Shown: positions 16,047 to 43,096 of the stretch, one piece after another
Layout: each line of letters starts with the position of its first letter
Position numbering within the stretch: the first letter of the stretch is position 1
Source of the DNA: Chthoniobacter flavus
GTDB lineage: Bacteria > Verrucomicrobiota > Verrucomicrobiia > Chthoniobacterales > JACTMZ01
Length of the DNA: 44,872 bases
Direction: 5' to 3'
Assembly: GCA_945871065.1 (NCBI GenBank)
Contig: CAMBUL010000014.1
Location: 1-44,872 of the forward strand
Position numbers and translations under genes: made by a program
The notes under the pieces: model-generated
What the model saw: only the letters and a program-made list of their open reading frames with translations
Told to the model about the DNA's origin: nothing
Databases searched by the model: none

Positions 16047-16052
16047 GAAGTG

Positions 16053-16134
16053 TGCTCGGGAAGGGAGTCGAACCCTTACTCCTTACGGAACCAGATCCTA
16101 AGTCTGGCGCGTCTGCCAGTTCCGCCACCCGAGC
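16053..16134 (-). tRNA. tRNA-Leu (anticodon TAG), integration target of the element
   Basis: Class II tRNA with acceptor GCTCGGG/CCCGAGC, anticodon loop CTTAGGA within stem CCAGA/TCTGG, a long variable arm and T-arm AAGGG-TTCGACT-CCCTT. Its 5' half (up to the anticodon loop) is the left copy of the 43-bp att repeat, while its 3' half is chromosomal. The gene is complete, but everything upstream of its 5' end, including its promoter, now belongs to the inserted element. Confidence 0.95.
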
Positions 16135-16138
16135 GATA
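16096..16138. repeat. attL (43-bp core repeat, left)
   Basis: Identical over 43 bp to 36602-36644. It includes the tRNA-Leu 5' half from the anticodon loop to the first base, plus 4 bases upstream (gata). Identity stops on both sides (a/c before, a/g after). Confidence 0.95.
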
Positions 16139-16173
16139 AATTCTTATTCATCTGATAGAAAGCGACTTACAGA

Positions 16174-16179: not shown

Positions 16180-16210
16180 TGAGCATACTCCCGCAAATTT
16201 ATTTTGCCAT

Positions 16211-16238
16211 TGTGCTACGGAGTGTGCTTCACTTGGCC
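16211..16238. repeat. Sub-terminal repeat, left copy (possible integrase arm site)
   Basis: A 28-bp stretch (tgtgctacgg followed by agtgtgcttcacttggcc) that recurs near the right end at 36460-36486 with one base missing. It contains two tgtgct units and lies directly before the integrase ATG, so it could bind integrase or autoregulate it. Inference only. Confidence 0.6.
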
Positions 16239-16239
16239 C

Positions 16240-17487
16240 ATGAGCACTCCTCGCAAAACCACCCGGAAAGTCACCCCCGAGACCAAGTTCGTTCCGGTCT
16301 TCCACAAGAACGGCCACCGCATTGAAGGCCTTTGGCAGCGCGGTTCCCGCTTCTACGGCCAGCTCCGAGTCCTCAAGAACGGGATAAAGCGGCCCACCAG
16401 AATCGCGCTGAGGGACGCCAACACCGTACCCCAAGCCGTGGAGAGGCTGGCCGAGGAGCGGCAGAAGAACCGCGAGGGCGAATTGGTGATCATCCAGCAT
16501 TCCCCCAAGCTAATCGACGCCATCAAGCAATACAAGGAGAGCACCAACTGGAAGCTCAAGCGGGAGGCGACCAGAGTAAGTGACAGAGGTTACCTGAACC
16601 GGTGGACCGTCGAGTTGGGCAACCAGAAGGCGGACAACATCCAACCGGCCATGATCTACGGCGTCCGCGACAAGCTCTTCACCGAGGGCAAGCACCCGAG
16701 GACGATCAACCTCTACGTGGGCGGACTTATGCAGGTGCTCCGCTTCTGCCATGAACGGGGCCAGCTCAAGCGTGTCCCCAAGATCGAGCGTCTGGAGGCA
16801 CCCAAGCCGCGCCGTCAGAGCTACTTCCCGGACCATCTGTTTGAGCAGCTCTTGGATAATTGCCGGCCCGAGGTGAACAAGAACGCGCCTCAGATGCGGG
16901 ACTTCCTCCGATTCCTCGCACTCACTGGAACCCGAGAGCAGGAGGCTACGGCCATCGCGTGGCGCGACATTGATTTTGAGGGCCGGCGCGTGGTGATCGG
17001 GGCGAACATGGAGACCAAGAACGGCGAGACCCGCGACCTCGACATGAGCGACGAGCTGATTGAGCTGCTCGCCGAGATGAAGGCTCGGCGGCAACCGGAT
17101 TCACAGTGGCTCTTCCCGTCTCCGCAACGGGGCAAGAAGGACGAGCACGTGAAGAACTTCCGCGCCTGTCTCAACGCCGTGCGCGGCACTCCGCGACCCA
17201 TCACCAAGGCGTGGAAAGGCCGGCGACCCAAGACCGAGGAGGTGAACAGTCAGCTCGCACACGTGGGCTTTCATACCCTCCGGCACCTCTTCATCTCCAA
17301 GTGCGTCATGGCCGGCGTCCCCTACATGACGATTGCCGAGTGGGTAGGCCACCAGGACGGCGGCGTGCTGATCGGCAAGGTCTACGGCCACCTCTGCAAA
17401 GATCACAAGGCGGACATGGCGAAGAAGCTCAGTCTCTTCAAGAAGCCCGAGAACGTGGTCGAGCTTCCACAACAAGCCGCCGGCTGA
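16240..17487 (+). CDS. int: Tyrosine recombinase (integrase)
   Basis: A 415-aa phage-type integrase that would catalyse site-specific insertion and excision at tRNA-Leu. It has a basic N-terminal arm-binding region, a SAM-like core-binding domain (about 95-185) and a C-terminal catalytic domain. Catalytic residues are Arg232 (TGTREQEA), Lys260 (METKNGE), His345-x-x-Arg348 (HTLRH), His371 (WVGHQ) and the nucleophile Tyr382 (GKVYGHL). All are intact, so it should be active. The ATG at 16240 is preferred over one 36 bases earlier because the extension is repeat sequence. Reading away from attL is the usual arrangement. Confidence 0.93.
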   Translation: MSTPRKTTRKVTPETKFVPVFHKNGHRIEGLWQRGSRFYGQLRVLKNGIKRPTRIALRDANTVPQAVERLAEERQKNREGELVIIQHSPKLIDAIKQYKESTNWKLKREATRVSDRGYLNRWTVELGNQKADNIQPAMIYGVRDKLFTEGKHPRTINLYVGGLMQVLRFCHERGQLKRVPKIERLEAPKPRRQSYFPDHLFEQLLDNCRPEVNKNAPQMRDFLRFLALTGTREQEATAIAWRDIDFEGRRVVIGANMETKNGETRDLDMSDELIELLAEMKARRQPDSQWLFPSPQRGKKDEHVKNFRACLNAVRGTPRPITKAWKGRRPKTEEVNSQLAHVGFHTLRHLFISKCVMAGVPYMTIAEWVGHQDGGVLIGKVYGHLCKDHKADMAKKLSLFKKPENVVELPQQAAG

Positions 17488-17698: not shown

Positions 17699-18916
17699 AT
17701 GGAAATTCTTGTCTTAATAGGAATCGTCGGCGCGATCGCCCTGTGGATCTGGATCACAGTGCTTAAAGACAGAGCCGGCAGATACACTGACCTTCGCAAG
17801 CAGCACGATGAGTTATGGAAAAAAGTCAGCGACATTGATGAATACGCCCGCATAATTAGAAACGAAGTTGCGCAAGAGCGCTCGGCGATGAGGACGGAAC
17901 TGGCCGCAGACCGCCTCAAACTCGATGCAAGGGAGCGAGCCTTAGACGAGCAGGTGGCAGCGGTTCAGAGGATTGCTACGGAGAAATCGGTTGGCTTCCC
18001 TTGGTTGGCTAAAGCATATGCGGATTTCTTTGCGCTCGAAGACGAGCGCATCGCGGACTCCTTGAAACGTAAGCAGAGGCCTGCGCGGAAATCCGCCGAA
18101 TTGGTTCAGGAGGCCAAGAGGAGGAGGCGCGATGCAGAGATCCGCGCAAGAGTCGCAGAGTACCAAATTCAATACTACGAATCTCTTTTCCCGTGGCTTG
18201 TAGACCTAAAGAGCGAAGACCTTGAGGACGCCGCTATCAGCCTAGCGGCCCCGGCAAACCTAGAGGGGGGCGCCGAGGAAGACCCCGCAAAACGGTGGCT
18301 TTCCGAGCAGGAATACGCCGCGATGCCTTCAGCGGAAAAATTCCAAAGGGCACTCGACAGATATTGGACGAGCAGAAAATCAAAATGGCAACTGGGTAGA
18401 GACTACGAGCGATACGTGGGCTGGCTATACGAGAAAGACGGCCACGCCGTCAGCTACCACGGAATTATTAAGGGCTTTGACGACCTTGGCAGAGACCTTT
18501 TAGCGACCAAGAATGGCGCTGTCCAAGTGGTGCAGTGCAAGTATTGGAGCAAGGAAAAGACCATCCACGAAAAACACATCTTCCAGCTCTACGGAACAAT
18601 GGTGGCTTACGGCCTCGATAACCCCAACGAACCTGTGAGCGGGCACTTTGTCACGTCAACATCCCTGTCTGACCGTGCCAAGAAGTTCGCAGAATACCTA
18701 GGTATCCACGTTACAGAGCAGCGGACGTTGGAGCGGTATCCTTGTATTAAGTGCAACATTTCCGAACGAACTCAAGAGAAGATCTACCACCTGCCTTTCG
18801 ACCAGCAATACGATTCAACGGTCATTGAGCCAGATCGTGGAGAATTGTTCGCTGCAAGCGTGGCAGATGCTGAGGGTCTTGGCTTTAGAAGAGCATTTAG
18901 GTATCGCGGCGCGTAA
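17699..18916 (+). CDS. Membrane-anchored coiled-coil protein with Mrr-like restriction endonuclease domain
   Basis: A 405-aa protein with three parts: an N-terminal transmembrane helix (residues 2-22), a long charged coiled coil (about 28-150) and a C-terminal PD-(D/E)xK nuclease of the Mrr_cat type. The nuclease shows Glu237 in GRDYERYVG, Asp266 in GRDLL and Gln279-Cys-Lys281 in QCKYW, with a HGIIKGFDDLGRD lead-in. The catalytic set is intact. Mrr-like enzymes cut modified or foreign DNA; anchoring to the membrane suggests that DNA is attacked at entry. The 211 bases upstream hold no recognisable gene. Probably defence cargo of the element. Confidence 0.8.
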   Translation: MEILVLIGIVGAIALWIWITVLKDRAGRYTDLRKQHDELWKKVSDIDEYARIIRNEVAQERSAMRTELAADRLKLDARERALDEQVAAVQRIATEKSVGFPWLAKAYADFFALEDERIADSLKRKQRPARKSAELVQEAKRRRRDAEIRARVAEYQIQYYESLFPWLVDLKSEDLEDAAISLAAPANLEGGAEEDPAKRWLSEQEYAAMPSAEKFQRALDRYWTSRKSKWQLGRDYERYVGWLYEKDGHAVSYHGIIKGFDDLGRDLLATKNGAVQVVQCKYWSKEKTIHEKHIFQLYGTMVAYGLDNPNEPVSGHFVTSTSLSDRAKKFAEYLGIHVTEQRTLERYPCIKCNISERTQEKIYHLPFDQQYDSTVIEPDRGELFAASVADAEGLGFRRAFRYRGA

Positions 18917-18937: not shown

Positions 18938-19423
18938 ATGCCCCTCTCACCCCTCGACCAGCTTCATCTAAACACCGCCGCCGGCTTCCTCCAGATCGGC
19001 GAGCCGATGGATGCCTGGAACGAACTGGAGATGATCGCGCCGCTCAACCGGGCGAAGACTGAAGTGCTCACCGTGCGCCTCGCCGTCTGCCGCGCCCTCA
19101 AGGATTGGGAGCAAGCCGAGGAGATCGCCCGCACGCTCATCCGGCGTGAACCCGGCAACGTCATGCACGTCGTCGCTCTGGCCGAAGCCGTGGGTCACCG
19201 CGAGGGGCCGGCCGCTTCGGCGGCAGTCTATGAGTTCGCTATCGTGCAGTTTCCCGACTTTGCACCGCTGCGGGTGTCGCTGGCGGTGGAATTGGTGAAA
19301 GCGGGGCAAATCCAAGACGCCAAACGGGTTGTGAAGATGGCGTGTGAGCTAGACCCGGATCTGAGGCTGGTGGTGCTGGATCATCCGGGGTTGGACGCCA
19401 TATGCTTAGAATCTTGTTGTTGA
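18938..19423 (+). CDS. TPR-like helical repeat protein
   Basis: A 161-aa protein built of paired helices with TPR spacing ([76 protein letters not shown]). No signal peptide. It is probably a protein-protein adaptor. It starts 21 bases after the nuclease gene and stops four bases before the DnaJ-domain gene, so the three probably form an operon. Confidence 0.7.
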
Positions 19424-19427
19424 TCCG

Positions 19428-20780
19428 ATGCAGCGTATCCCCACCCACTACGACACGTTGAAAGTCGCGCAGGACGCGCCGACCGAAGTCATCAAGAGCG
19501 CCTATCGCGCACTTGCTAGGAAATACCACCCTGACAGCAATCCCGACTTGGAGGAGGCCGTAAAAGCGATGCAGGCCCTCAACCAAGCTTTTGAGGTGCT
19601 CATCGATCCGGTCCAGCGAAAAGCGCACGACGAGTGGATAGACCAACAGACGGCTAGCCAGTCAGCAGGAGCAAGCCGCCAACCATACCGAGACGCTGGC
19701 ATTTCCTCGGCAAAGAATCGGCAGAAAGGTCATGCACGCAAATCTCCTTTCGCGGGCCAATTTTGGCCAAAGGCAGACAAACTTTCGCCGAGCGCCGTTA
19801 TGCTCATTGTGGCTTTGGCGGCCGCTTTGATCGCCCTTGTTGTTATCGCGCTAGAAACTCAAGGCAGATCATCCAAAACAAGGGCGCCGGCCAGCGAGTC
19901 AACACCGTTGCCGACTCCCGCATTTACACCTACGCCCACACCCATTGCCACACCGACAGTCACACCGACTCCATCGCCAACTCCGACTCCAACTCCGACT
20001 CCAACGCCAGAGCCAACGCCAACACCTACGCCCACACCGACGCCAACACCAGAGCCAACACCTACACCCACGCCTACGCCTACACCGACACCTACACCGG
20101 CGCCTGCATTGGCCCCAAGACGAGGATTCACAGCCTACTCCGAAGCGATAAACATCGATTTTGGAGTCGGAGGCGCCCAGCGCCAACTTCGTAAGCGCGA
20201 GTTGGCCGGGTTATTTCGTTCATCCAAGTGGAACACCGCATCCGGAGCATCCGGAACGATGTCCAACCCGGTCACGAGCCAGGGCAAACCGACGGCGGCG
20301 GTGATCAGTTGGTCTGCCAACAACCTTTACCAAGTGCAGGACGTGAGAATCGGTGACGACGACGGAAACTTCACCATGATGTTCGGCTATCTGGACACGG
20401 CCAACACCTCCACCACCGAAGTCCGTGTCGAAAATATTCCCGAAAGCTTCGTCGCCGACGGCTACGACCTGATTGTCTATGTCGATGGCTCCAACGGTTC
20501 GCGGAGCCGCGTGGGACTCTATGAGGTCGTCGTGTCGGGGCGCGAACCGGTGACGAAATTCGTGAAGGACGGCGCCGGCAAATCCTTCGACGGCAAGTTC
20601 GTCGAGGCGGACACGGCAACGGCGCCAACAACGGCAGCCGATGGCATTCAGGGGAATGCGATAGTTTTCCGAAACATGAAGGCCCGCGAATTTGCGCTGC
20701 TGGCAAAAGGGGAAATCGGAGAGGGTTTTAACCGCGCCCCTATCAACGGGATACAAATCGTGAAGCTCGCCGAGGAATAA
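19428..20780 (+). CDS. DnaJ-domain membrane protein with Pro/Thr stalk and exported C-terminal domain
   Basis: A 450-aa chimera. Residues 5-70 are a J domain with intact HPD (34-36), which stimulates Hsp70 ATPase. A transmembrane helix follows (about 121-142), then a Pro-Thr dipeptide repeat stalk (about 158-225) and a C-terminal domain (about 228-450) of beta character, with [25 protein letters not shown] and [21 protein letters not shown]. Similar C-terminal modules occur in exported proteins of Verrucomicrobia and Planctomycetes (memory of the pattern). The topology implied is J domain inside and beta domain outside the membrane. Its partner Hsp70 is not encoded nearby. Confidence 0.75.
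19908..20104 (+). repeat. Pro-Thr coding tandem repeat
   Basis: Short units of the type ccgacgccaaca and acacctacgccc encode the PT stalk of the DnaJ-domain protein. The same kind of repeat, in opposite orientation, encodes a stalk at 35154-35280. Such repeats can expand or shrink by slippage. Confidence 0.85.
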
Positions 20781-25697: not shown

Positions 25698-27446
25698 ATG
25701 CAACTCACAATCGCCATTTTCATCGTTGCGCTAATCGCAGCTGTAATCGTCCTTTACTTGCTGAAAAACAGAGCGGACAAGAAACTCCGTGCTGCTCAGA
25801 ATAGTTGCAAGGCCGAGCTTGACGCCGTAAACGCGCGCTACGCCGAGGACGCACAACGCATTCAGCAAGACTACGCACAGAGACTTGCTGCCTTGGAAGA
25901 AGAAGCAGGAAAAATCCGAGTGCACTACGAGGAGGCGGCGCGGCAGGCACAGGAAGCTTCACAAGAAGCACTAACAAAAGCGCAAGTTGAGCTAGCAAGT
26001 CTCAGTAAATATGCGGACCTGCGCGATGCTGAGGCCGAGGTCGCTGCCCGACTAACGCAAGCAATCGCAGACGCCGAAGCCCTGTATGCGGAGGCAACGG
26101 CTTCGGTCGAAGCTGCAAGCCAAATTGCCAATTTGGAGAAGCGCGAGGCGCAGGAGCGGGCGCGTGAGATTTACAGCCAAGCAGAAGCTTTGATGGTACA
26201 AGCCAACAGCGATGCGGGCAAACTACTGGCTGCCGCTGAAGCGCGCGCCCATGAAGTCGGTGGAGAGGCCTACGAGGCTCTCCAGAGCAAGGTTGCTCTC
26301 GACCAAGCGGTCCGGGCGATCAGCAATGTTATTGATGGCTACGGCGACCGCTACGTCGTGCCCACACACAGTGCAATCGACGACCTAGCGGCCGACTTTG
26401 GCCACCTCGCTGCTGGTGAGTCGCTGCGCATAGCACGGGAAAACTCCCGCCAAATGGTGCTTAGGGGCGAGGCCGCTGCCTGCGACTACGCCGAAAGTGA
26501 GCGGAGAACAACAGCCGTACGGTTCGTGATAGATGCCTTTAACGGGCGCGTAGAGGGCGTATTGAGCCGCGCAAAGCACGACAACCATGGAACGTTGGAG
26601 CAGGAAATTAGGGACGCCTTTGCGCTGGTCAACCTGAACGGGGTCGCCTTTAGAAACGCGCGGATTCAACAGCTTTATTTGGATGCACGGCTGACCGAGC
26701 TTCATTGGGCAGTCGCTGCTCAAGAATTAAAGCGCAAGGAACGCGAAGAGCAGCGCCAGATTCAGGATCAGATCAGGGAGGAGGAAAAGGCGCGGCGGGA
26801 CTTTGAGCGTGCCCAACAAGAGGCCGCCCGCGAGGAGGAGCTGATTCGCAGAGCAATGGAGAAGGCACAAGAACAGGTCTCGCAAGCAACCGAGGAGGAG
26901 CGCCGAAAGATTGAGGCACAACTTGCCGAGTTGCAGCAGAAGCTGACCGAGGCAGAGGCGAAGAGCCAGCGGGCGCTGTCGATGGCTCAACAGACCCGCG
27001 CCGGCAACGTTTACATCATCTCAAACGCGGGGTCGTTCGGGGATGACGTGCTGAAAATCGGCATGACCCGACGCCTTGAGCCTTTCGACCGGATCAAAGA
27101 GCTTGGCGATGCTTCCGTGCCGTTTGAGTTTGATGTTCACGCCATGATTCGCAGTGATGATGCCCCGACACTGGAGCGCGAGATGCACGCCGCATTTGAA
27201 GACCACCGGCTTAACAAAGTGAACTACCGTAAGGAGTTCTTCCGTGTGCCGCTGCAGACGGTCCGAGAGTTCGTTGCGATGCGACAGCTTGAGGCGACAT
27301 TTACCATGACTGCTGAAGCCCGCGAATATCGGGAGTCCGTGGCATTGGCCAAAATGACTCCTGAGGAACAGGCGCGCTACCACATCAGCGAAGATAGGGG
27401 GACGGCGAGTGCTAGAGTATTGGCGGCGGCCATGGATCTGGGCTGA
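25698..27446 (+). CDS. Membrane-anchored DUF4041 / GIY-YIG (T5orf172-type) nuclease, SNIPE-like
   Basis: A 582-aa protein with an N-terminal transmembrane helix (residues 3-22), a long coiled coil (about 25-205), a DUF4041-like central region (about 205-345, VRAISNVIDGYGDRYVVP through IQQLYLDARLTELHW), a second coiled coil (345-430), and a GIY-YIG-type nuclease: NVYIISN (Tyr439), KIGMTRR (Arg458), EREMH (Glu495, His497). TM-DUF4041-GIY-YIG is the architecture I recall for SNIPE, a phage-defence protein reported to cut incoming phage DNA at the membrane; that is from memory and not checked. It is co-transcribed with the preceding coiled-coil gene. Confidence 0.8.
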   Translation: MQLTIAIFIVALIAAVIVLYLLKNRADKKLRAAQNSCKAELDAVNARYAEDAQRIQQDYAQRLAALEEEAGKIRVHYEEAARQAQEASQEALTKAQVELASLSKYADLRDAEAEVAARLTQAIADAEALYAEATASVEAASQIANLEKREAQERAREIYSQAEALMVQANSDAGKLLAAAEARAHEVGGEAYEALQSKVALDQAVRAISNVIDGYGDRYVVPTHSAIDDLAADFGHLAAGESLRIARENSRQMVLRGEAAACDYAESERRTTAVRFVIDAFNGRVEGVLSRAKHDNHGTLEQEIRDAFALVNLNGVAFRNARIQQLYLDARLTELHWAVAAQELKRKEREEQRQIQDQIREEEKARRDFERAQQEAAREEELIRRAMEKAQEQVSQATEEERRKIEAQLAELQQKLTEAEAKSQRALSMAQQTRAGNVYIISNAGSFGDDVLKIGMTRRLEPFDRIKELGDASVPFEFDVHAMIRSDDAPTLEREMHAAFEDHRLNKVNYRKEFFRVPLQTVREFVAMRQLEATFTMTAEAREYRESVALAKMTPEEQARYHISEDRGTASARVLAAAMDLG

Positions 27447-28536: not shown

Positions 28537-28920
28537 ATGGACACATATTCCATGCAAACACACGAAGTACCACACGCACCGTTCACTCCTTCCACGCTGT
28601 TTGGCGTCACGGAGTCGGGCGAAGATACAGGCATTGTCCCCGGTCTGATGGCCTTGGACAAATTCATCGAAGGCATCGGCGTTACCCGCGAGACGCTCGT
28701 TAAGTGGCGCCGGCAGGGGCTGCTTGAGACCTGCAACATCTACGGCCGACTCTACGTCACAACGGAGGAGGTGTTACGTTTCAAGCGCAGGGTCATGTCC
28801 GGCGAGTTCGCCAAGTGCATCAAGCGCCCACAACGGGAGCAGCAGCTGGCGGACATTGCCGGCGAGGACAACGACAATGCGGAGTGCGCCTCGGCGGATC
28901 TCGTAAGGGAGGCACGATAA
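28537..28920 (+). CDS. Small helix-turn-helix DNA-binding protein (excisionase/MerR-like)
   Basis: A 127-aa protein with a winged-helix/MerR-like motif in the middle: ALDKFIEGIGVTRETLVKWRRQGLLET followed by the wing NIYGRLYVTTEEVLRFKRRV. Proteins of this size and type act as excisionases or as regulators of replication genes in integrative elements. The stop overlaps the ATG of the replication protein (TAATG), so translation is coupled and the two act in one module. It may bind the nested palindromes just upstream or the repeats at the element ends. Confidence 0.75.
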   Translation: MDTYSMQTHEVPHAPFTPSTLFGVTESGEDTGIVPGLMALDKFIEGIGVTRETLVKWRRQGLLETCNIYGRLYVTTEEVLRFKRRVMSGEFAKCIKRPQREQQLADIAGEDNDNAECASADLVREAR

Positions 28921-31900
28921 TGCACGCCACCGTGGATGGGCCACCGGACAACCTCCTCGACGCTGCAAGGTTCTACCGTGAGCGCCACGGATGGGCCGTA
29001 CATCCCCTGCATGGGCCGGCCGAGGGCAGCGAGAGGGAGAGAGGCAAGAAGCCCAAGTTGGCCGGCTACAACAAGCCGGACTACCAAGGATTGGACACGG
29101 ACGCCGCACTGGTGGCCGCATTCGGTAACGGCAAGGGCAGCAACCTCGGCATCGTGGTGCGTCCGCCCCATGTGGTGATCGATCTCGACAGCAAGAGGGA
29201 CGCCGGCGAGAGCGTCCGCGCATGGCTGGCCGAGCGGCCCGAGCTGGCGGAAGTGCCACGGGAGCGCACGGCCGGCGGGGCGCACCTACACTTCATCTGC
29301 AGGGACGCGCCCAAGCTCGACGGTGGCAAGCAAGTGGAGCAGCTCAACGAGTTCGTCACGGCGGAGATCTTTACGGGTCCGAGCAACATGGTGATCAGTC
29401 CGAGCGTCCACCCGAGCGGCCAGCGTTACGCATGGGAGGTCTTCCGCGAGGACTTCCCCGAGGTGCGCTGGCAGTTCCTGGTGGAGACATTCAAGGCGCC
29501 GGTGCAGGCACGGTCGAAAGGTCGCGGAGACGTGACTACGCTCGACGTGGAGGCATTTGCGAGGGATCTCGGCATCTATGGCCGGCGGATTCCGGGCGTG
29601 GACAACTTGGGGCGAGTTCGCCACACGATACAATGCCCGTGGCATGAATTGCACACGCTCAAGGGGACGGCACGTGAGTCCGGCACGGTGCTCTTTGAGC
29701 CAAAAGATGGTGCTCCGCCGGCCTTTGATTGTCAGCACGCGCACTGCCAGACCAAGACGATCAGTGACGTGATGAGGTGGGCTGAGGAGCAGAAGCACGG
29801 AGTGATCGACGCGCACTGTGCCAAGCAACAGGACAGGCCGGCGCACACGCCACCGATCACCACGATAGACGGCAAGCCGGCGCTCATGCTCCCGTGCGAC
29901 GATTGGACGATAGGACAATTCTCAGACCAACTTGGGCGCATCCTCTCGGCGTCCGGCGTCTACGAGCGCAGCGGCATACCCTTTACGGTCAACGCGACCA
30001 CGCACCAGTGCGAGCCGGTCACGGCGGACTTTCTGCGAACATGGGCGGAGAACTCCGTGGCGTGCTTCACAACACGGGGACACGGGCGCAACGAGTTCAA
30101 GGTCTGCAAGACCATGAGCATCGACACGGCACGGGCCGTGATCGCCTCACAGCAATTCTCCAAGCACCTCAAACCCCTGTCGCACGTTGCAATGGTGCGG
30201 ACGCCAGTCCTACGGGCAAGCGGCGACATTGTGCTACGGCCTCGGGGCTACGACCAAGAGTCCCAAGTCTACACGGCCACGGACGCCATCGATTTTGACG
30301 AGCACATGGACTTCCCCCGAGCCAAGCAAGTGCTCGACGATCTCCTCAAGGAGTTTCCGTTTGCGGAGGACGGCGGGAGGAGCAGGGCCGTGGCGATCTC
30401 CGCCATGCTGGCCGTCTACGGCAACGGTCTGATCACCGCCGGCGCCACCCGCCCGTGCTTCATCTACCTCGGCAACATGGAGGGCAGCGGTAAGACCCTG
30501 CTCGCACGCATCGCGGCGCTACCCTACGGCAATGTCCCGGTAACGGGCGGCCCATCGAAGGACGAGGAGTGGGACAAGCTGCTCCTGTCCATCGTGATCG
30601 GCGGCCGGCGCATCGTGATCTTTGACAATGTGCGCGGCCACCTCGCCAGCCAGCACCTTGAGCGGTATCTGACGAGCAGTAGCTACTCCGGGCGCATCCT
30701 TGGGGTCAGTAAGGAGTTTGAGGGCGAGGCCGGCGCTATTGTCTGCATCACCGGCAACCGTCTGACCGTCTCGCCGGATCTCCGCCGGCGCTCCCTTTTT
30801 GTGGAGCTATTCTGCCATGAGCTTTCCGCCGAGCGGCGAAGGTTCACCCGCATCCTCGATGAGCCAGCACTGACCAAATTGAGGCCGGACGCGCTGGCCG
30901 CGCTCCACGCTCTCGTGCGCCACTGGGACAGCAAGGGGCGGCCTCCGGGGCGCAACAAGCACGCCAGCTTCCCGAGATGGGCCGAGGCCATCGGCGGCAT
31001 CATGGAGGCGGCCGGCTACGCAAACCCCTGCCAACTCCCCGTGATCGATGACATGGGCGACACGGACGCCGCAGACATTCAGACCCTCTGCTCCATGATG
31101 CCGGTGGGGAAACGCTTTGAGTTCTCCGATCTGGCCGAGCTGTGCGTCGAGCATGGGTTGTTTGAGCGGGTCACGGAGCGGCGGGACGGTGAGGATCTCG
31201 ACAAGGCGGCCAAGACGGCGCTCGGGCGGGTTCTCAAGGGCTACCATGCCCGAACCACGGTGGCCGGACCTCCCGCGCTACACTTCCTTGTCCAGGGTAA
31301 GGGACACTCACGGTTCTTCACGATGAAGCCCGCCACCGGCGTACATGATCGACATGATCAACATGATGGTATCGCCAATAATGAAAACACACAAAACCCC
31401 CATAAGCCGCAGGATCATGTTCATCATGCTGATCATGCACCGGACAACACGAATAACGTGAAGTTAAGCACTCAAACCCCACCTGCACCCGTTCGCTACG
31501 TCTACGTCACGTCCCAGGATGTGCTGGCCGAGATCGCCCAAGACCTCACCAAGGCCGACAAAATGCTGGCCTTGGATCTGGAAACCTACGGGCAAGACCC
31601 GCTTAATCCGCGCAAAGGTGAGATCCGCACGCTTACCGTGGCTCGCCGGGGCGGAACCCCGTGGATCATCGACCTCAAGGCCATCGGCTACGACCTCGGT
31701 CCGGTCAAACAGGAGCTGCTCAAGCGTCCCCTAATCATCCACAACGCACGCTTTGACTTGGGCTGGCTGGCCGAGAAGCTGCAGATCCGGCCCATTGGCG
31801 TCGATACGTTGTCCCTCTCCCGTCTGCTCACGGCCGGCACGAATGACGGTAATGACCTCGGTGCAGTGCTCAAGCGCCACCTCGGTGTTGATGCACCCAA

Positions 31901-33197
31901 ACACCTCGGCCGGTCCGACTGGGGTGGTATGATGCTGTTTGAGGATCAACTTGAGTACGCCGCACGGGACGTGGCGCATCTCCATGACCTCGGCGGCAAG
32001 CTGGCGTCCGAGATCAAGGCCGCCGGCATGATGGACGTGATGAGTCTGGAAATCCATGTCCTGCAGGTGGTCCGCAACATGACCGCTACCGGGTTCGCCG
32101 TGGACGTGGGGAGGCTCGGCGCAATCAACACCAGGGCCAGCGCAGAGGCGGGCACGGCAGCCAAAACCCTGCAGGGAAAGCTCGGCCCGATCAACATGGC
32201 CTCTCCCAAGCAGCTGATGAAGGCACTCAAGGGCGCCGGTCATGGCGTGGAGAGCACGGACAACGAGGCGCTGCAGGGCATTAAGGACAAGGAGCTGGCC
32301 GCCGGCATCATAGCCTACCGCGAGTCCGAGAAGCTGGCACAACAGGCGCAAAGTCTGCTCGACGCCACCCACAACGGGCGCATCCATGCGGACTACGATC
32401 CAACCGGCACGGCCACGGGGCGCTTCTCCTGCAAGCGGCCGAATCTGCAGAATGTTTCACGGGGCGAACTGCGAGACTGCTTCATCGCATCCCCCGGCAA
32501 GCTGCTTGTGGTCTGCGACTACTCACAAGTCGAGTTGAGGCTGGCGGCGTACATAGCCAAGGACGAGAGAATGCTGACCGCCTTCCGTGACGGCATCGAT
32601 CTGCACGCTGCCACGGCGGCCATCGTGTTGGACAAGGCGCCGGCTGACGTGACCAAGCAGGACCGACAACTCGCCAAGGCGGTCAACTTTGGCCTCATCT
32701 ATGGGCAGTCCGCCCGAGGTCTGGTGCGCTACGCAAAATCCTTGTACGGCGTTGAGCTGTCCGAAAAACGGGCGCACGAGATCCGCGACAGGTTCTTCCG
32801 GGCGTACGCCGGCCTCGCACGCTGGCACAAGGTGGCAACACAGGATGCCCGAGGATTCGTAAGCGCAGAGGCGCGAACCCTGCTTGGCCGGCGACAGCAA
32901 CTCCTCGACGGCGACTGGTGGCCGCGCTTCACCCGTCTGGTCAACACGCCGGTGCAGGGTACGGCGGCGGACGGCATCAAGAAGGCGCTGGTTCGCCTCG
33001 CTCAGGCACTACCCGTGGGCGCACAGGTGGTGGCAACGATCCACGACGAGATCGTGGTCGAGTGTGAGGAGGCACAAGCGCCGGACGTGCTCGCCATGAC
33101 CAAGACCACGATGATCGAAGGCATGGCGGAGATCGCCAAGGACTGTCCAGTGGAAGTTGAGGGCGGCGTTGGTAAGACTTGGGGGTCCGCCAAGTGA
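28920..33197 (+). CDS. Fused PrimPol primase - AAA+ helicase - DEDDy exonuclease - family A DNA polymerase
   Basis: A 1425-aa replication protein. (1) Residues about 10-220: PrimPol domain with VIDLDS (Asp88, Asp90) and AHLHF (His122, His124). (2) About 235-280: Cys/His cluster (Cys239, His242, Cys271, Cys276), possibly zinc-binding. (3) About 470-720: AAA+ domain with Walker A NMEGSGKT (Lys525), Walker B RIVIFDN (Asp569) and sensor/arginine region CITGNRLTVSPDLRRRS. (4) His/Asp-rich linker about 800-850. (5) About 880-1030: 3'-5' exonuclease, LDLET (Asp886, Glu888), NARFDLGWL, YAARDVAHL. (6) About 1040-1425: PolA-type polymerase, motif A CDYSQVELR (Asp1200), motif B Arg1249/Lys1253/Tyr1261, motif C HDE (1375-1377). 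Every key residue seen is intact. GGGAGG lies upstream of the start. Confidence 0.92.
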   Translation: MHATVDGPPDNLLDAARFYRERHGWAVHPLHGPAEGSERERGKKPKLAGYNKPDYQGLDTDAALVAAFGNGKGSNLGIVVRPPHVVIDLDSKRDAGESVRAWLAERPELAEVPRERTAGGAHLHFICRDAPKLDGGKQVEQLNEFVTAEIFTGPSNMVISPSVHPSGQRYAWEVFREDFPEVRWQFLVETFKAPVQARSKGRGDVTTLDVEAFARDLGIYGRRIPGVDNLGRVRHTIQCPWHELHTLKGTARESGTVLFEPKDGAPPAFDCQHAHCQTKTISDVMRWAEEQKHGVIDAHCAKQQDRPAHTPPITTIDGKPALMLPCDDWTIGQFSDQLGRILSASGVYERSGIPFTVNATTHQCEPVTADFLRTWAENSVACFTTRGHGRNEFKVCKTMSIDTARAVIASQQFSKHLKPLSHVAMVRTPVLRASGDIVLRPRGYDQESQVYTATDAIDFDEHMDFPRAKQVLDDLLKEFPFAEDGGRSRAVAISAMLAVYGNGLITAGATRPCFIYLGNMEGSGKTLLARIAALPYGNVPVTGGPSKDEEWDKLLLSIVIGGRRIVIFDNVRGHLASQHLERYLTSSSYSGRILGVSKEFEGEAGAIVCITGNRLTVSPDLRRRSLFVELFCHELSAERRRFTRILDEPALTKLRPDALAALHALVRHWDSKGRPPGRNKHASFPRWAEAIGGIMEAAGYANPCQLPVIDDMGDTDAADIQTLCSMMPVGKRFEFSDLAELCVEHGLFERVTERRDGEDLDKAAKTALGRVLKGYHARTTVAGPPALHFLVQGKGHSRFFTMKPATGVHDRHDQHDGIANNENTQNPHKPQDHVHHADHAPDNTNNVKLSTQTPPAPVRYVYVTSQDVLAEIAQDLTKADKMLALDLETYGQDPLNPRKGEIRTLTVARRGGTPWIIDLKAIGYDLGPVKQELLKRPLIIHNARFDLGWLAEKLQIRPIGVDTLSLSRLLTAGTNDGNDLGAVLKRHLGVDAPKHLGRSDWGGMMLFEDQLEYAARDVAHLHDLGGKLASEIKAAGMMDVMSLEIHVLQVVRNMTATGFAVDVGRLGAINTRASAEAGTAAKTLQGKLGPINMASPKQLMKALKGAGHGVESTDNEALQGIKDKELAAGIIAYRESEKLAQQAQSLLDATHNGRIHADYDPTGTATGRFSCKRPNLQNVSRGELRDCFIASPGKLLVVCDYSQVELRLAAYIAKDERMLTAFRDGIDLHAATAAIVLDKAPADVTKQDRQLAKAVNFGLIYGQSARGLVRYAKSLYGVELSEKRAHEIRDRFFRAYAGLARWHKVATQDARGFVSAEARTLLGRRQQLLDGDWWPRFTRLVNTPVQGTAADGIKKALVRLAQALPVGAQVVATIHDEIVVECEEAQAPDVLAMTKTTMIEGMAEIAKDCPVEVEGGVGKTWGSAK
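31343..31439. repeat. Inverted cluster of 9-bp repeats within the replication gene (candidate origin)
   Basis: Three direct 9-bp units (acatgatc/g, starts 31343, 31352, 31361) and, 44 bases on, three units in inverted orientation (gatcatg-type, starts 31413, 31422, 31431). The spacer is AT-rich (aataatgaaaacacacaaaa) in otherwise GC-rich DNA. The units encode an HDR/HDQ/HDG and HVH/HAD linker between helicase and exonuclease domains, so a protein-level reason is also possible. Confidence 0.6.
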
Positions 33198-33210: not shown

Positions 33211-36048
33211 CTATTGCGCGGCGTTTCTCCAGAGTCGAAACCCCTGATGGGTGTAGTACACCGTATCCGATGAAACCCTGTTTGTAATGCGACACTGAGC
33301 CGCGCCACTTATATAAGCACCGCCACGCACGACGTAATAGAACGAGAGACCATCAAATCGAGAAAACGTAATCTCCGCAATATTTCCACTCATGTCGTGT
33401 AAACCAAGTTCATTAGATTTTTTCGTGCCTACTGCTTTAAACGACCCTCCAAAAGTGGTGTTAGAATAATACCAACCCAATTCATTTATCCCGCCGACCC
33501 CACTGTACAAGCTTGGCTCGTCCCTTACGCCACCGATGGCCGCCCATTCCCATTCAGCTTCTGTAGGTAAGCGGTAACCGTTAGCGTTAGTGTTATTGGT
33601 AACTCCGCTGCCGTAACCTCGACCACGAAACGGTCCCCCAACATCCGCATATACGGGCTGTAAATTCTCCATTTCGCTTTTGGCGTTGCACCAGCTCACA
33701 GCGTTGTTTTGCATGACCCCATAAGCCGGTAAATTGGTAGAGGTGGAGTTTGTGATTTTCTGTAAGTGACTTACTAAGCCGTCGAATGTGTACCCGTTAG
33801 AGATTGCCCAAGCGTGCACTCGCTGCCAGTCGGCAACAGTGACCTCATACTTACCAACAAAGGCGTTCGACACCGTGCGACCAGCTATCGGCGAGCTCGG
33901 TGTTAGCGTTCCGCCGGCCACGTAAACCATTCCGCTAGGAGCACCTGTTCCGGTTCCGCTAAGGACAACAGACGCACCGCCTCCACTGGCTGTCCATTGG
34001 ATGCTTAGCAGCCCAGGGTAAACGCCGGTTTCAAGCGGCTCAAACGTGATTGGGATCTGTTGAGTCTCGCCCGCGCTTAAAGTTCCGGTCCAAGAACCTG
34101 AGTAATTCGCAGGCACAGCAATGCGTGTGATGGTGAGGCTTTCGGGACTGTTGTTTTTAATGGTGAGAAATAGAGTCTTCATGTCGCCGATCTCGACTGG
34201 CCCGTAATTAAGCGCTGAGTCGATGCTAATTGGCGCACCCGCTATGCGGACGAGGCGCATGCCAACACTCGGCACAATTGTTTGTGTAGGCGAATCGTAG
34301 GCTCCACGGTCTGCTACTGAGCAGCTCGCCGCCCCCGAACGAAAAGATCCGCCACGAAAAGCTCTCCAAGAATCATAACCAAAATCCCAGAGCCATTCGT
34401 CCACATTGCCACTCATATCGTACACTCCCAGCTCGTTAGGGTTTTTTGTGCCGACTGGCTGCGTCTTTCCCCCAGAGTTATCCCTATACCAAGCAATGAA
34501 ATCTGCGTCATTCGACCCACTGTAAACATAGCCTAGGCTTTGTGATCCTCCCCGCGCCGCCCATTCCCACTCAATTTCAGTCGGCAGGCGGTAGCCAGAC
34601 GCATTCGCATTCATGCTAACTCGCGCGAAATCTTCCCGCGCCGGGTTCCCTTCTCGGAACGTCTGTCCGTCCAGTTGAAATGCAGGCTCCAAGCCCTCCC
34701 TCTCGCTCTTGGCATTGCACCATTTGATTGCGTCGTTCCAGCTCACACCACGCACTGGATTGGCCATACCATCAAAGATCGGTGAGCTTTGGAAAGAGTA
34801 CCCATTGCTGGACGCCCAAGCCGACACCAATTGCCATACATCCTGAGTGATCTCGGTTACGGATATTAGGAACGGCGCAACTTTCTCGCCGGATAGCGCA
34901 GACGAGTTCGGCAGCACGCCGCCTGGGACCAAGACCATCGGCGGGACCAGCTGTGGGCTCCATTTCAGCCGATAGAACCCAGATCTTGCATTACCTGTGG
35001 CGTGTTCAAATAAGCCCGACCCATTGTTTGTGGAGACAGCTAGCCAGCCCAAAGACAAATCCGAAGTGTACTCAAGAATGCTCACGCCAGTGTATACCGC
35101 ATCCCAAGAAATGGTAGTACTGCCGGGCGCCCTCGTAATGCGCAAGTCGGGCGTCGACGTAGGCGTGGGCGTCGGCGTCGGCGTCGGCGTTGGCGTAGGT
35201 GTCGGTGTAGGCGTAGGTGTCGGCGTGGGCGTAGGTGTAGGCGTTGGCGTGGGCGCAGGCGTCGGTGTGGGTGTAGGCTGAGGAGTTGACGCGGGGAGTG
35301 CGGCAAGTAGAAGCGCTACTTTCAGCTCGTCTGGGTCTTCGCTTGGCGTCTTCGCGGAATTTTTGGTGACGTAAGCCACGGCCGAAACCAAACCAGTGGC
35401 GATGCTCTTGCGGTAAATTATCGGAGGAGTAGACGCACTCGGGTTGTAGGCACTCTGAGAGCCAAAGGCGGACCCATAGCTGCTCAACGAATTGTATATA
35501 CTTGTGGAGCTGGTCGCCGAGCCATGCTGGCCAGCCTCGTTAATTATCGAAAGCGAGTTGGCCGTGTCCGGGTAAGTGAACCCAAGTCGGGTGCCATCGT
35601 TGGCCTCAATCAAGGTTTGAAACGTGGGCGTGCTAAAAAATTGGCTGTGGTAGCTCCAGTTATCGAGGACGTCTAACCCGACTAGAAGGAAGTCGGGGTC
35701 CAAGCCGCCGTTGACAGTTCGGTTTTTAGTCAGAAACCCGACGATAATGAGCGAGTTGTTAACGATCAGCGGCGGTCGCGAGGCGTAGGAACTGTACGCG
35801 CTGAGCGTGGAATAAGTACTACCGTAAGTAGAATAGCTGTTGCGGATGCTTGTGGAGGAGGAGGCGCTGCCGTAACTGCCAAATCTGTTCCTAATCGAGT
35901 CGCCAACTGTGCTCCGCGAAATAACTCCGAGGAACTGTGGCGGTTCCTCGTCGGAGTACAGCGCGCAACCAATGAATTGATCGAGAATAGTAGCCGGTTG
36001 AGCGAGGGTCGCAGACGCTGTGAGGATTAGCACGAGGAACCAGCGCAT
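33211..36048 (-). CDS. Large exported protein with two FGE/SUMF1-like domains
   Basis: A 945-aa exported protein. A signal peptide (MRWFLVLILTASATLA) supports the start at 36048. The N-terminal region holds two similar Ser/Tyr/Gly-rich modules (SSSTSIRNSYSTYGS...ASRPPLIV and SSTSIYNSLSSYGS...ASTPPIIY). A Pro-Thr stalk follows, then a first FGE-sulfatase (SUMF1) domain ending in the YDMSGNVDEWLWD and FRGGSF motifs, an Ig-like domain (KNNSPESLTITRIAVP...SGTG), and a second SUMF1 domain (NANGYRLPTEAEWEWAA, LHDMSGNIAE, VRGGAY). Bacterial SUMF1-like domains are often ligand-binding C-type-lectin folds rather than enzymes. Convergent with the replication gene, 13 bases apart. Confidence 0.8.
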   Translation of the reverse strand: MRWFLVLILTASATLAQPATILDQFIGCALYSDEEPPQFLGVISRSTVGDSIRNRFGSYGSASSSTSIRNSYSTYGSTYSTLSAYSSYASRPPLIVNNSLIIVGFLTKNRTVNGGLDPDFLLVGLDVLDNWSYHSQFFSTPTFQTLIEANDGTRLGFTYPDTANSLSIINEAGQHGSATSSTSIYNSLSSYGSAFGSQSAYNPSASTPPIIYRKSIATGLVSAVAYVTKNSAKTPSEDPDELKVALLLAALPASTPQPTPTPTPAPTPTPTPTPTPTPTPTPTPTPTPTPTPTPTPTSTPDLRITRAPGSTTISWDAVYTGVSILEYTSDLSLGWLAVSTNNGSGLFEHATGNARSGFYRLKWSPQLVPPMVLVPGGVLPNSSALSGEKVAPFLISVTEITQDVWQLVSAWASSNGYSFQSSPIFDGMANPVRGVSWNDAIKWCNAKSEREGLEPAFQLDGQTFREGNPAREDFARVSMNANASGYRLPTEIEWEWAARGGSQSLGYVYSGSNDADFIAWYRDNSGGKTQPVGTKNPNELGVYDMSGNVDEWLWDFGYDSWRAFRGGSFRSGAASCSVADRGAYDSPTQTIVPSVGMRLVRIAGAPISIDSALNYGPVEIGDMKTLFLTIKNNSPESLTITRIAVPANYSGSWTGTLSAGETQQIPITFEPLETGVYPGLLSIQWTASGGGASVVLSGTGTGAPSGMVYVAGGTLTPSSPIAGRTVSNAFVGKYEVTVADWQRVHAWAISNGYTFDGLVSHLQKITNSTSTNLPAYGVMQNNAVSWCNAKSEMENLQPVYADVGGPFRGRGYGSGVTNNTNANGYRLPTEAEWEWAAIGGVRDEPSLYSGVGGINELGWYYSNTTFGGSFKAVGTKKSNELGLHDMSGNIAEITFSRFDGLSFYYVVRGGAYISGAAQCRITNRVSSDTVYYTHQGFRLWRNAAQ
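35154..35280 (-). repeat. Pro-Thr coding tandem repeat (second copy type)
   Basis: Repeats of the type ggcgtgggcgtc and ggtgtaggcgta encode the PT stalk on the minus strand. They resemble, in reverse complement, the repeats at 19908-20104. Confidence 0.85.
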
Positions 36049-36255
36049 GACCCTCACACTTCGACCGGACCGCCTCCAACGCAAGTAAATGCGCATAAGT
36101 ATTATCACCTATAGTTCGCAACTCTCTGGTGCTGTGTGGGTTGCGGGCAGGTGCGTGCAACGGCCACAAGTAACCCGTGGCAAATGGCGTAGATATAACA
36201 GCATTTAACCACACGCTTTTTGATCTGCATCCCTCTGTTATTCAACGATTTGTGG

Positions 36256-36601: not shown

Positions 36602-36644
36602 TCCTAAGTCTGGCGCGTCTGCCAGTTCCGCCACCCGAGCGATA
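36602..36644. repeat. attR (43-bp core repeat, right)
   Basis: Exact copy of 16096-16138. It leaves a 5' half of tRNA-Leu (minus strand, ending in the anticodon loop) next to the chromosomal upstream region of that tRNA, which holds an ATATTATCCTG -10-like sequence at 36650-36660. Confidence 0.95.
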
Positions 36645-36737
36645 GATCAGGATAATATCAGGCAACGGGCCCCTGGCGAGGGTGGAGCTTGGTTGGGTTT
36701 GACTTACCAGCGGGCCCGGTGTTCCGGGGCGGCCGCA

Positions 36738-42820: not shown

Positions 42821-42959
42821 GCCACGGATGGAAGAGGATGCCAGAAGATGGTGTTCGCGCCGCTGACACGGCGCAAACACAGTCCTCGGAGAGATGCCAT
42901 GAGTGGGGCGCGTGTCAGCGCGTCCCGCTTATCCTCTTTCATCTTCTTCCATCCGTGGC
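42821..42959. repeat. Inverted repeat in the gene-free region after the RND pump
   Basis: A 20-bp sequence gccacggatggaagaggatg (42821-42840) and its complement at 42940-42959 match at 19 of 20 positions, enclosing 99 bases. The wider 42581-43096 stretch has no credible gene. 'ccacggatgg' repeats of this type are frequent in verrucomicrobial genomes (memory). Possibly a REP/BIME-like or miniature element, or a long hairpin in the transcript. Confidence 0.6.
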
Positions 42960-43096
42960 CTGTCTTTATTCCCTTTCGAGAGAGTAACTCTCATTGAGTT
43001 AGCAGGGAGGCAAACATCGCGATCCACCTGGGCTGAATGGAAGGTGATACCTTTGCGCTTGACCGCGCACCTCGACTGGAATCACCTGCGGAGGAC

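Follow-up and report, generated by a model that had tools for sequence, protein, structure and literature searches.

The 44,872-nucleotide contig CAMBUL010000014.1 (the window, meaning the whole stretch of DNA analysed here) comes from a draft genome of 120 contigs in the order Chthoniobacterales (Verrucomicrobiota) and carries an integrated element with a gene whose 1425-residue product joins a Prim-Pol primase, a superfamily 3 (SF3) helicase, a 3'-5' exonuclease and a family A DNA polymerase in a single chain. The reading that we favor, at a probability of roughly 0.68, is that this protein is both the replication initiator and the replicase of an integrative element and that it acts from an origin inside its own gene: the DNA that codes for the linker between helicase and exonuclease carries inverted iterons and, because pRN1, SaPI Rep/Cch2 and phage lambda offer precedents, would be the element's replication origin, now translated. 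One gene may hold most of what copying the element requires.

How is such a protein put together? The open reading frame (ORF) at 28920-33197 (plus strand) stays open through 1425 codons, with zero internal stops; a favorable ribosome-binding site, AAGGGAGG, precedes the ATG, which shares bases with the stop codon of an upstream gene for a helix-turn-helix (HTH) protein. The gene, its neighbor and its parts, which include an archaeo-eukaryotic primase (AEP) domain, are laid out as follows:

28537-28920, plus strand: small HTH protein, 127 residues, overlapping the replicase start (PF12728, E 3.9e-5, below Pfam's own cut-off)
28920-33197, plus strand: four-domain replicase, 1425 residues (ORF, Pfam, PHROGs)
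28968-29438, plus strand: Prim-Pol (AEP) domain, residues 17-173 (PF09250, E 1.8e-12)
29634-29747, plus strand: CPWxxxH...CxHxHC motif resembling a zinc-binding site, residues 239-276 (alignment)
30186-31034, plus strand: SF3 (D5-like) AAA+ helicase core, residues ~423-705 (phrog_10537/phrog_29234; model match to D5/E5 and AsfvPrimPol; motifs)
31059-31337, plus strand: predicted C-terminal winged-helix-like domain, residues ~714-806 (helix-helix-helix-strand-strand in the model)
31497-32015, plus strand: DEDDy 3'-5' exonuclease, residues 860-1032 (PF01612, DNA_pol_A_exo1, E 1.7e-16)
32154-33185, plus strand: family A DNA polymerase, residues 1079-1422 (PF00476, DNA_pol_A, E 6.9e-78)

A preliminary description of this DNA, made from its letters and reading frames, had read all four activities in one frame with their key residues intact. 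Pfam, PHROGs, a structural model and the motifs agree with it, and the two folds on which it hinged, PrimPol and Pol A, were both found (PF09250 and PF00476, with Foldseek covering residues 1-830). The primase residues D88/D90, H122 and E149 are present and conserved in relatives; the exonuclease has D886, E888, D946, Y1013 and D1017; the polymerase has D1200, R1249, K1253, H1375 and D1376 of motifs A, B and C; and across all domains the catalytic residues are mostly conserved in the relatives. The AAA+ domain has no match in the Pfam scan, and PHROGs and structure were used instead: profiles of a phage ATPase of unknown function detect it at residues ~423-705 with E down to 4.5e-31, and its canonical set is complete, comprising Walker A GNMEGSGKT (K525/T526), Walker B IVIFDN (D569), sensor 1 ITGN and the arginine finger PDLRRR. 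An AlphaFold model of residues 1-830, built with 31 aligned relatives (mean pLDDT 84.6, pTM 0.54), finds poxvirus D5/E5 and African swine fever virus (ASFV) PrimPol among PDB structures with Foldseek (E 2e-9 to 1e-7, probability 1.00); because of these matches, the N-terminal half is, by its predicted structure, an AEP joined to a D5-like SF3/AAA+ primase-helicase. By analogy with pRN1, SaPI and Cch2, the winged-helix-like domain would be the origin binder, and the CPWxxxH...CxHxHC motif, whose C239, H245, C271, H275 and C276 are invariant across an alignment of four homologs, probably binds zinc. Two other identities for the polymerase half were considered and rejected: orthology to DNA polymerase I (PolA1), which has an N-terminal FEN-like 5'-3' exonuclease that Pfam does not find anywhere in the 1425 residues, and TV-Pol, a minimal PolA-like core never fused to a nuclease (PMC2579912), for here a DEDDy exonuclease is fused.

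The protein is not alone. Another 22 intact ORFs of ~1460-1675 residues combine the four domains, in Verrucomicrobiota genomes and viral contigs: 12 were read directly (L013, L020, L021, L023-L025, L027, L029, L033, L037, L039 and L044, with L020 and L029 near copies within one genome), seven lie in viral contigs (L099-L102, L104, L105 and L108) and three are L131, L136 and L137, with L131 judged by match span and frame length only. Most are 36-41% identical to the window protein over nearly the full length. One of the viral contigs is a tailed phage, with terminase, portal, head protease and major head (capsid) protein, and a joint scan of two more also turned up matches to terminase and portal. 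No homolog covering 80% of the whole protein (query P0001) came up among 50,697 phage and 72,556 plasmid records, and the phage records searched with P0002, the G040 relative, likewise returned nothing at 80% coverage. Around this core the family varies. The helicase-exonuclease-PolA chassis is kept in L014 (7062-11837) and L028 (10731-15599), where the N-terminus is different, a BT4734-like primase in L014 (PF08800, E 1.7e-22) that L028 resembles; therefore, the primase module has been exchanged. In two viral contigs, L106 (4790-6868) and L107 (6744-8747), an exonuclease-PolA of the same clade follows a different gene, which, read by eye, looks like an AEP primase with a RecA-like helicase. 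Frames are split or shifted in L034, L038 and L040; in L034 (9566-12363) helicase and exonuclease-PolA are read in different frames, which overlap within the spacer that separates perfect 31-bp arms; this could be an error in the frame or else a genuine split or frameshift.

What sets the linker apart is its DNA. The peptide between helicase and exonuclease varies in every member yet holds short repeated tripeptides, and in the DNA beneath it three tandem units of ~9 bp are followed by an AT-rich spacer, beyond which the units return in inverted form. The window has this array:

31344-31367, plus strand: iteron array arm 1, CATGATCGA CATGATCAA CATGAT
31368-31413, no strand: AT-rich spacer, 46 bp, 48% GC (gene 63%)
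31414-31437, minus strand: iteron array arm 2, the inverted copy of arm 1, ATCATGTTCATCATGCTGATCATG

No other close inverted repeat in the element is as strong; its score is reached by 0 of 300 dinucleotide shuffles and 1 of 300 synonymous-codon shuffles, and in AT content a 135-bp stretch at the linker ranks within the top 0.1% of the gene. The sole close inverted repeat in the window that outscores it lies just outside the element, at 42821-42960 (20 bp, with a 99-bp spacer). Across the family, the best inverted repeat of the gene falls in the linker for 25 of 28 members, while 16 of 861 control windows of equal length attain the linker-repeat score; most spacers measure 82-103 bp and have 29-51% GC, in genes of 54-66% GC. 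The sequence of the iteron unit differs between members, and a member's own two arms match each other better than they match other members' arms in 646 of 650 comparisons, which are not independent, the members being related. A meaning of these repeats (GDVGDV, HDxHDx) at the protein level was rejected: they are inverted at the DNA level, vary in sequence among members and are non-coding beside some stand-alone helicases.

It is these stand-alone genes that reveal to which part of the protein the repeat belongs. The stand-alone SF3 helicases nearest to the window module have the same array at their 3' end, placed inside the gene end in L016, directly past the stop in L132 and ~35 bp past the stop in L133; the L132 array shares the CATGATC core with the window, and their spacers (38, 56 and 59 bp) are similar in length to the 46 bp of the window and unlike the 82-120 bp found in nearly all other fused members. 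Conversely, exonuclease-PolA genes partnered with another kind of primase-helicase (L106, L107 and L032) have no such array. A further 36 stand-alone relatives, more distant and not used before, include several near copies of one another; in 11 of the 36 the 3' region holds the best inverted repeat of the locus, where one or two are expected. Arrays are missing from the stand-alone helicases L018, L019 and L008, L139 has only a short palindrome, and in the cultured Akkermansia phage Moulinsart a stand-alone helicase homolog is present and the array was not found. The repeat accompanies the SF3 module with or without a fused polymerase, and is sometimes non-coding.

Origins next to or inside the genes of their initiators are familiar. 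The plasmid pRN1 requires a 100-nt stem-loop directly 3' of its AEP-SF3-winged-helix gene, ORF904, with the pairing conserved and the sequence not (PMC4234260); the window shares the AEP, the SF3 helicase, a predicted winged helix and an inverted repeat directly 3' of the helicase-coding part, whereas pRN1 has neither exonuclease nor PolA and its origin does not code for protein. SaPI Rep and SCCmec Cch2 are helicases of integrated elements that load themselves, and the iterons they bind lie directly downstream of the genes encoding them (PMC7581432); SaPI5 Rep is among the structural matches of a sister protein, but no polymerase is fused to these helicases and their iterons lie outside coding sequence. 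In lambda, the origin iterons sit inside the initiator gene O (PMC3985674), although O is neither helicase, primase nor polymerase.

If the polymerase and the helicase share one chain, do they share one history? The polymerase of the window falls inside the clade of the fused family (100/99), and identity to the other fused members is 46-59% for its primase and 43-53% for its polymerase. By contrast, its AAA core is 50% identical to the stand-alone P0005 and ~30% to other fused members, and in an SF3 tree, whose root was not inferred, it groups with stand-alone helicases (98/98), a single fused clade being rejected (p-AU 0.013). Because the SF3 module groups with the stand-alones while the polymerase groups with the fused family, the sequences point to either a swap of helicase together with origin or an independent fusion. 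We regard as unlikely the view that no swap occurred and that the window module is ancestral, with the form found in the other fused members derived from it: canonical Walker motifs are indeed common to the window and the stand-alone helicases, and the unrooted SF3 tree leaves room for this polarity, but the module sits within a supported stand-alone group, its identities run opposite to those of the primase and polymerase (~50% to fused members), and an ancestral fusion would require later splits in the stand-alone lineages.

The Walker motifs divide the family in the same place. All 29 other fused members (29/29; L108, L013 and L136 are examples) have GKD in Walker A and an alanine or Gly-Asn in place of the Walker B acid (HLAN/HFAN or HLGN/HIGN), whereas the window and the stand-alone genes have GK[TS] and D-N. 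The altered ATP site looks as if the metal-binding acid had moved. A Pif1/Dda helicase gene lies immediately upstream in 16 of the 21 other members with usable upstream DNA (one seen partly), the exceptions being L105 and four members with shorter upstream sequence; no such gene lies upstream of the window replicase. It is plausible, from these gene contents, that most members hand unwinding to Pif1/Dda and that the window protein keeps it. The division of the Walker motifs, with the window on one side and the other 29 members on the other, lends itself to testing how a helicase is lost and its loss made good. The preliminary description had noticed neither the inverted iterons nor that the AAA+ module has an ancestry of its own, nor that the Walker motifs are altered in all other members found.

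The current model of replication would run as follows. Once the element has excised, the winged-helix end of the SF3 module would bind the inverted ~9-bp iterons at 31344-31437, just 3' of the helicase-coding part, and hexameric rings assembled on them would melt the AT-rich spacer. Primers would come from the AEP domain, and the exonuclease-polymerase half would extend them with proofreading while the helicase unwinds ahead. The gene itself seems to have arisen when a stand-alone SF3 helicase gene with an origin at its 3' end was joined in frame to a downstream exonuclease-PolA gene, so that the old origin came to be read as a disordered linker; in the window, it seems, SF3 module and origin either were traded together, as a cassette, with stand-alone replicons living in the same hosts or come from a separate fusion. 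The most elaborate version of this proposal, in which a translated origin marks the seam of a four-activity replicase, helicase and origin were swapped as one cassette inside the fused gene, the helicase of the family majority with its rearranged ATP site may only recognize the origin while Pif1/Dda unwinds, and the window version does everything alone, strikes us as evenly poised between right and wrong. Were it true, initiator, helicase, primase, proofreading polymerase and origin would all come from one gene, a near-minimal self-contained replicon that could serve cell-free and synthetic DNA replication, and read-through of an origin would be a way to build a replicase of several enzymes.

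Several observations weigh against this proposal. The window array is among the weaker ones, with 21 of 24 positions pairing and that one synonymous shuffle in 300 reaching its score; the linker repeat is not the best of the gene in L024, L037 and L049; many distant stand-alone relatives lack a best inverted repeat at their 3' region; and a swap cannot be told apart from an independent fusion. Among the element ORFs scanned with Pfam, no single-stranded DNA-binding protein (SSB), ligase, primer-removal nuclease or topoisomerase was recognized. This last result also bears on the suggestion, made in the preliminary description, that such a protein could free its element from host primase, helicase and polymerase: a mobile-element replicase is backed by the family data, full autonomy is not.

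Could the repeat act in RNA instead? A hairpin in the transcript might slow ribosomes between the two halves or split the product into primase-helicase and polymerase, leaving the replicase real and the origin elsewhere. As would be expected of a stem, the two arms pair in register in many phage members, down to differences specific to single units (own arms 0.88, versus 0.54 when slid by 9 bp); the window strand folds, as DNA, somewhat better than shuffles (z -2.4); and the L034 halves, in different frames, overlap inside the spacer. The pRN1 origin itself needs a stem, however, so in-register pairing fits both readings, and the rest speaks for DNA: past the stops of the stand-alone helicases in L132 and L133 no ribosome passes, the repeat tracks the SF3 module and not the polymerase, and arms of tandem ~9-bp units around an AT-rich spacer are the arrangement of known SF3 origins. 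A hairpin seems to us quite improbable. Less probable still is a repair or accessory (repriming) primase-polymerase on an element copied by the host replisome. Repair is among the possible roles of PrimPols, the host presumably has DnaB and Pol III, and a Thermus element-borne Ppol is reported to be dispensable for the replication of its element (PMC7693054); yet the window protein combines intact proofreading and polymerase motifs with an SF3 helicase of the initiator type and origin-like iterons in the same gene, the same protein is the replication module of a tailed-phage contig, and a host order that apparently lacks chromosomal PolA fits, without proving, an element that brings its own. 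Finally, the draft state of the window genome and the broken frames of L034, L038 and L040 might suggest an assembly chimera or a frame error joining two genes, an error of the kind that the preliminary description had feared in a hidden stop. Family-wide, such an artifact is rejected as a general explanation, and for the window it is almost certainly wrong: the same architecture occurs in one frame in 22 other loci or contigs, most at 36-41% identity.

The idea of four activities in one chain has precedents, of which the window is a PolA-based variant. In lactococcal phage 1706, the protein GP55 unites a helicase, an AEP primase, an exonuclease and PolB, and all four activities have been demonstrated in vitro (PMC12205980). 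It resembles the window protein in combining helicase, AEP primase, exonuclease and polymerase but has a family B polymerase, not family A (PF00476), and the order helicase-primase-aHD-PolB; the accessible part of its report notes no in-gene origin. PREX of apicomplexan plastids is a single polypeptide that comprises primase, helicase, 3'-5' exonuclease and family A polymerase (PMC8113025). Its exonuclease-polymerase half is the point of likeness, and PREX polymerases are among the best PDB matches of the polymerase half of the window protein. The primase and helicase of PREX are TOPRIM and DnaB-like, kinds unrelated to the Prim-Pol (PF09250) and the SF3/D5 fold of the window protein; PREX is also a nuclear gene whose product is matured by proteolysis. 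Poxvirus D5/E5 and ASFV PrimPol share the fold of residues 1-830 but belong to eukaryotic viruses and have no fused polymerase. Mobile PolA3 polymerases are similar by description (exonuclease and polymerase without 5'-3' nuclease, proofreading motif intact, prophage-associated), and the main text of their report mentions neither primase nor PrimPol (PMC12926913). Of the preliminary statement that a union of all four is not known, one part holds, the AEP-SF3-exonuclease-PolA combination and the origin in its seam being new as far as our search of openly accessible literature, preprints aside, reaches; in its general form it is preceded by GP55 and PREX.

A polymerase of this kind matters also because DNA polymerase I seems to be absent from the host order. 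Of 57 genomes of the order, 46 have no PF00476 match, and the matches in the others look like mobile-element genes; among 213 genomes, with the two best candidates per genome scored, none has a DNA polymerase I-like match that reaches E 1e-30. Loss of Pol I in part of Verrucomicrobia has been published (PMC12926913). The element could therefore not borrow a host Pol I.

The element that carries the replicase has clear ends:

16096-36647, no strand: whole integrated element, ~20.5 kb (flanked by a 46-bp direct repeat, 98%, with a tyrosine integrase immediately inward of the left copy)
16096-16141, no strand: left attachment-site repeat, spanning the 5' half of the tRNA-Leu gene
16052-16134, minus strand: tRNA-Leu gene
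16204-17487, plus strand: tyrosine integrase (PF00589, E 2.4e-19; phrog_1, E 6.3e-50)
36602-36647, no strand: right attachment-site repeat, 98% identical over 46 nt

Integration is in the 5' half of tRNA-Leu, from the anticodon loop to the 5' end, and not at the usual 3' end, and the element must supply the 5' half of the tRNA and possibly a promoter. No virion genes were recognized among the element ORFs scanned, and the tRNA is the sole match in an Rfam scan of the element. By sequence similarity the element carries defense cargo: the product of 25698-27446 closely matches the phage-defense protein PD-Lambda-1 (DUF4041 and T5orf172, E 2e-108). An Mrr-type endonuclease, a TPR protein and a DnaJ-domain protein stand in a row (17699-18916, 18938-19423 and 19428-20780) and possibly form a further defense cluster, the DnaJ protein matching PD-T4-6 weakly. 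At the right end, 33211-36108 (minus strand) encodes a large FGE-sulfatase-domain protein with an ASH domain, whose internal repeats recur inverted at 19.9-20.1 kb.

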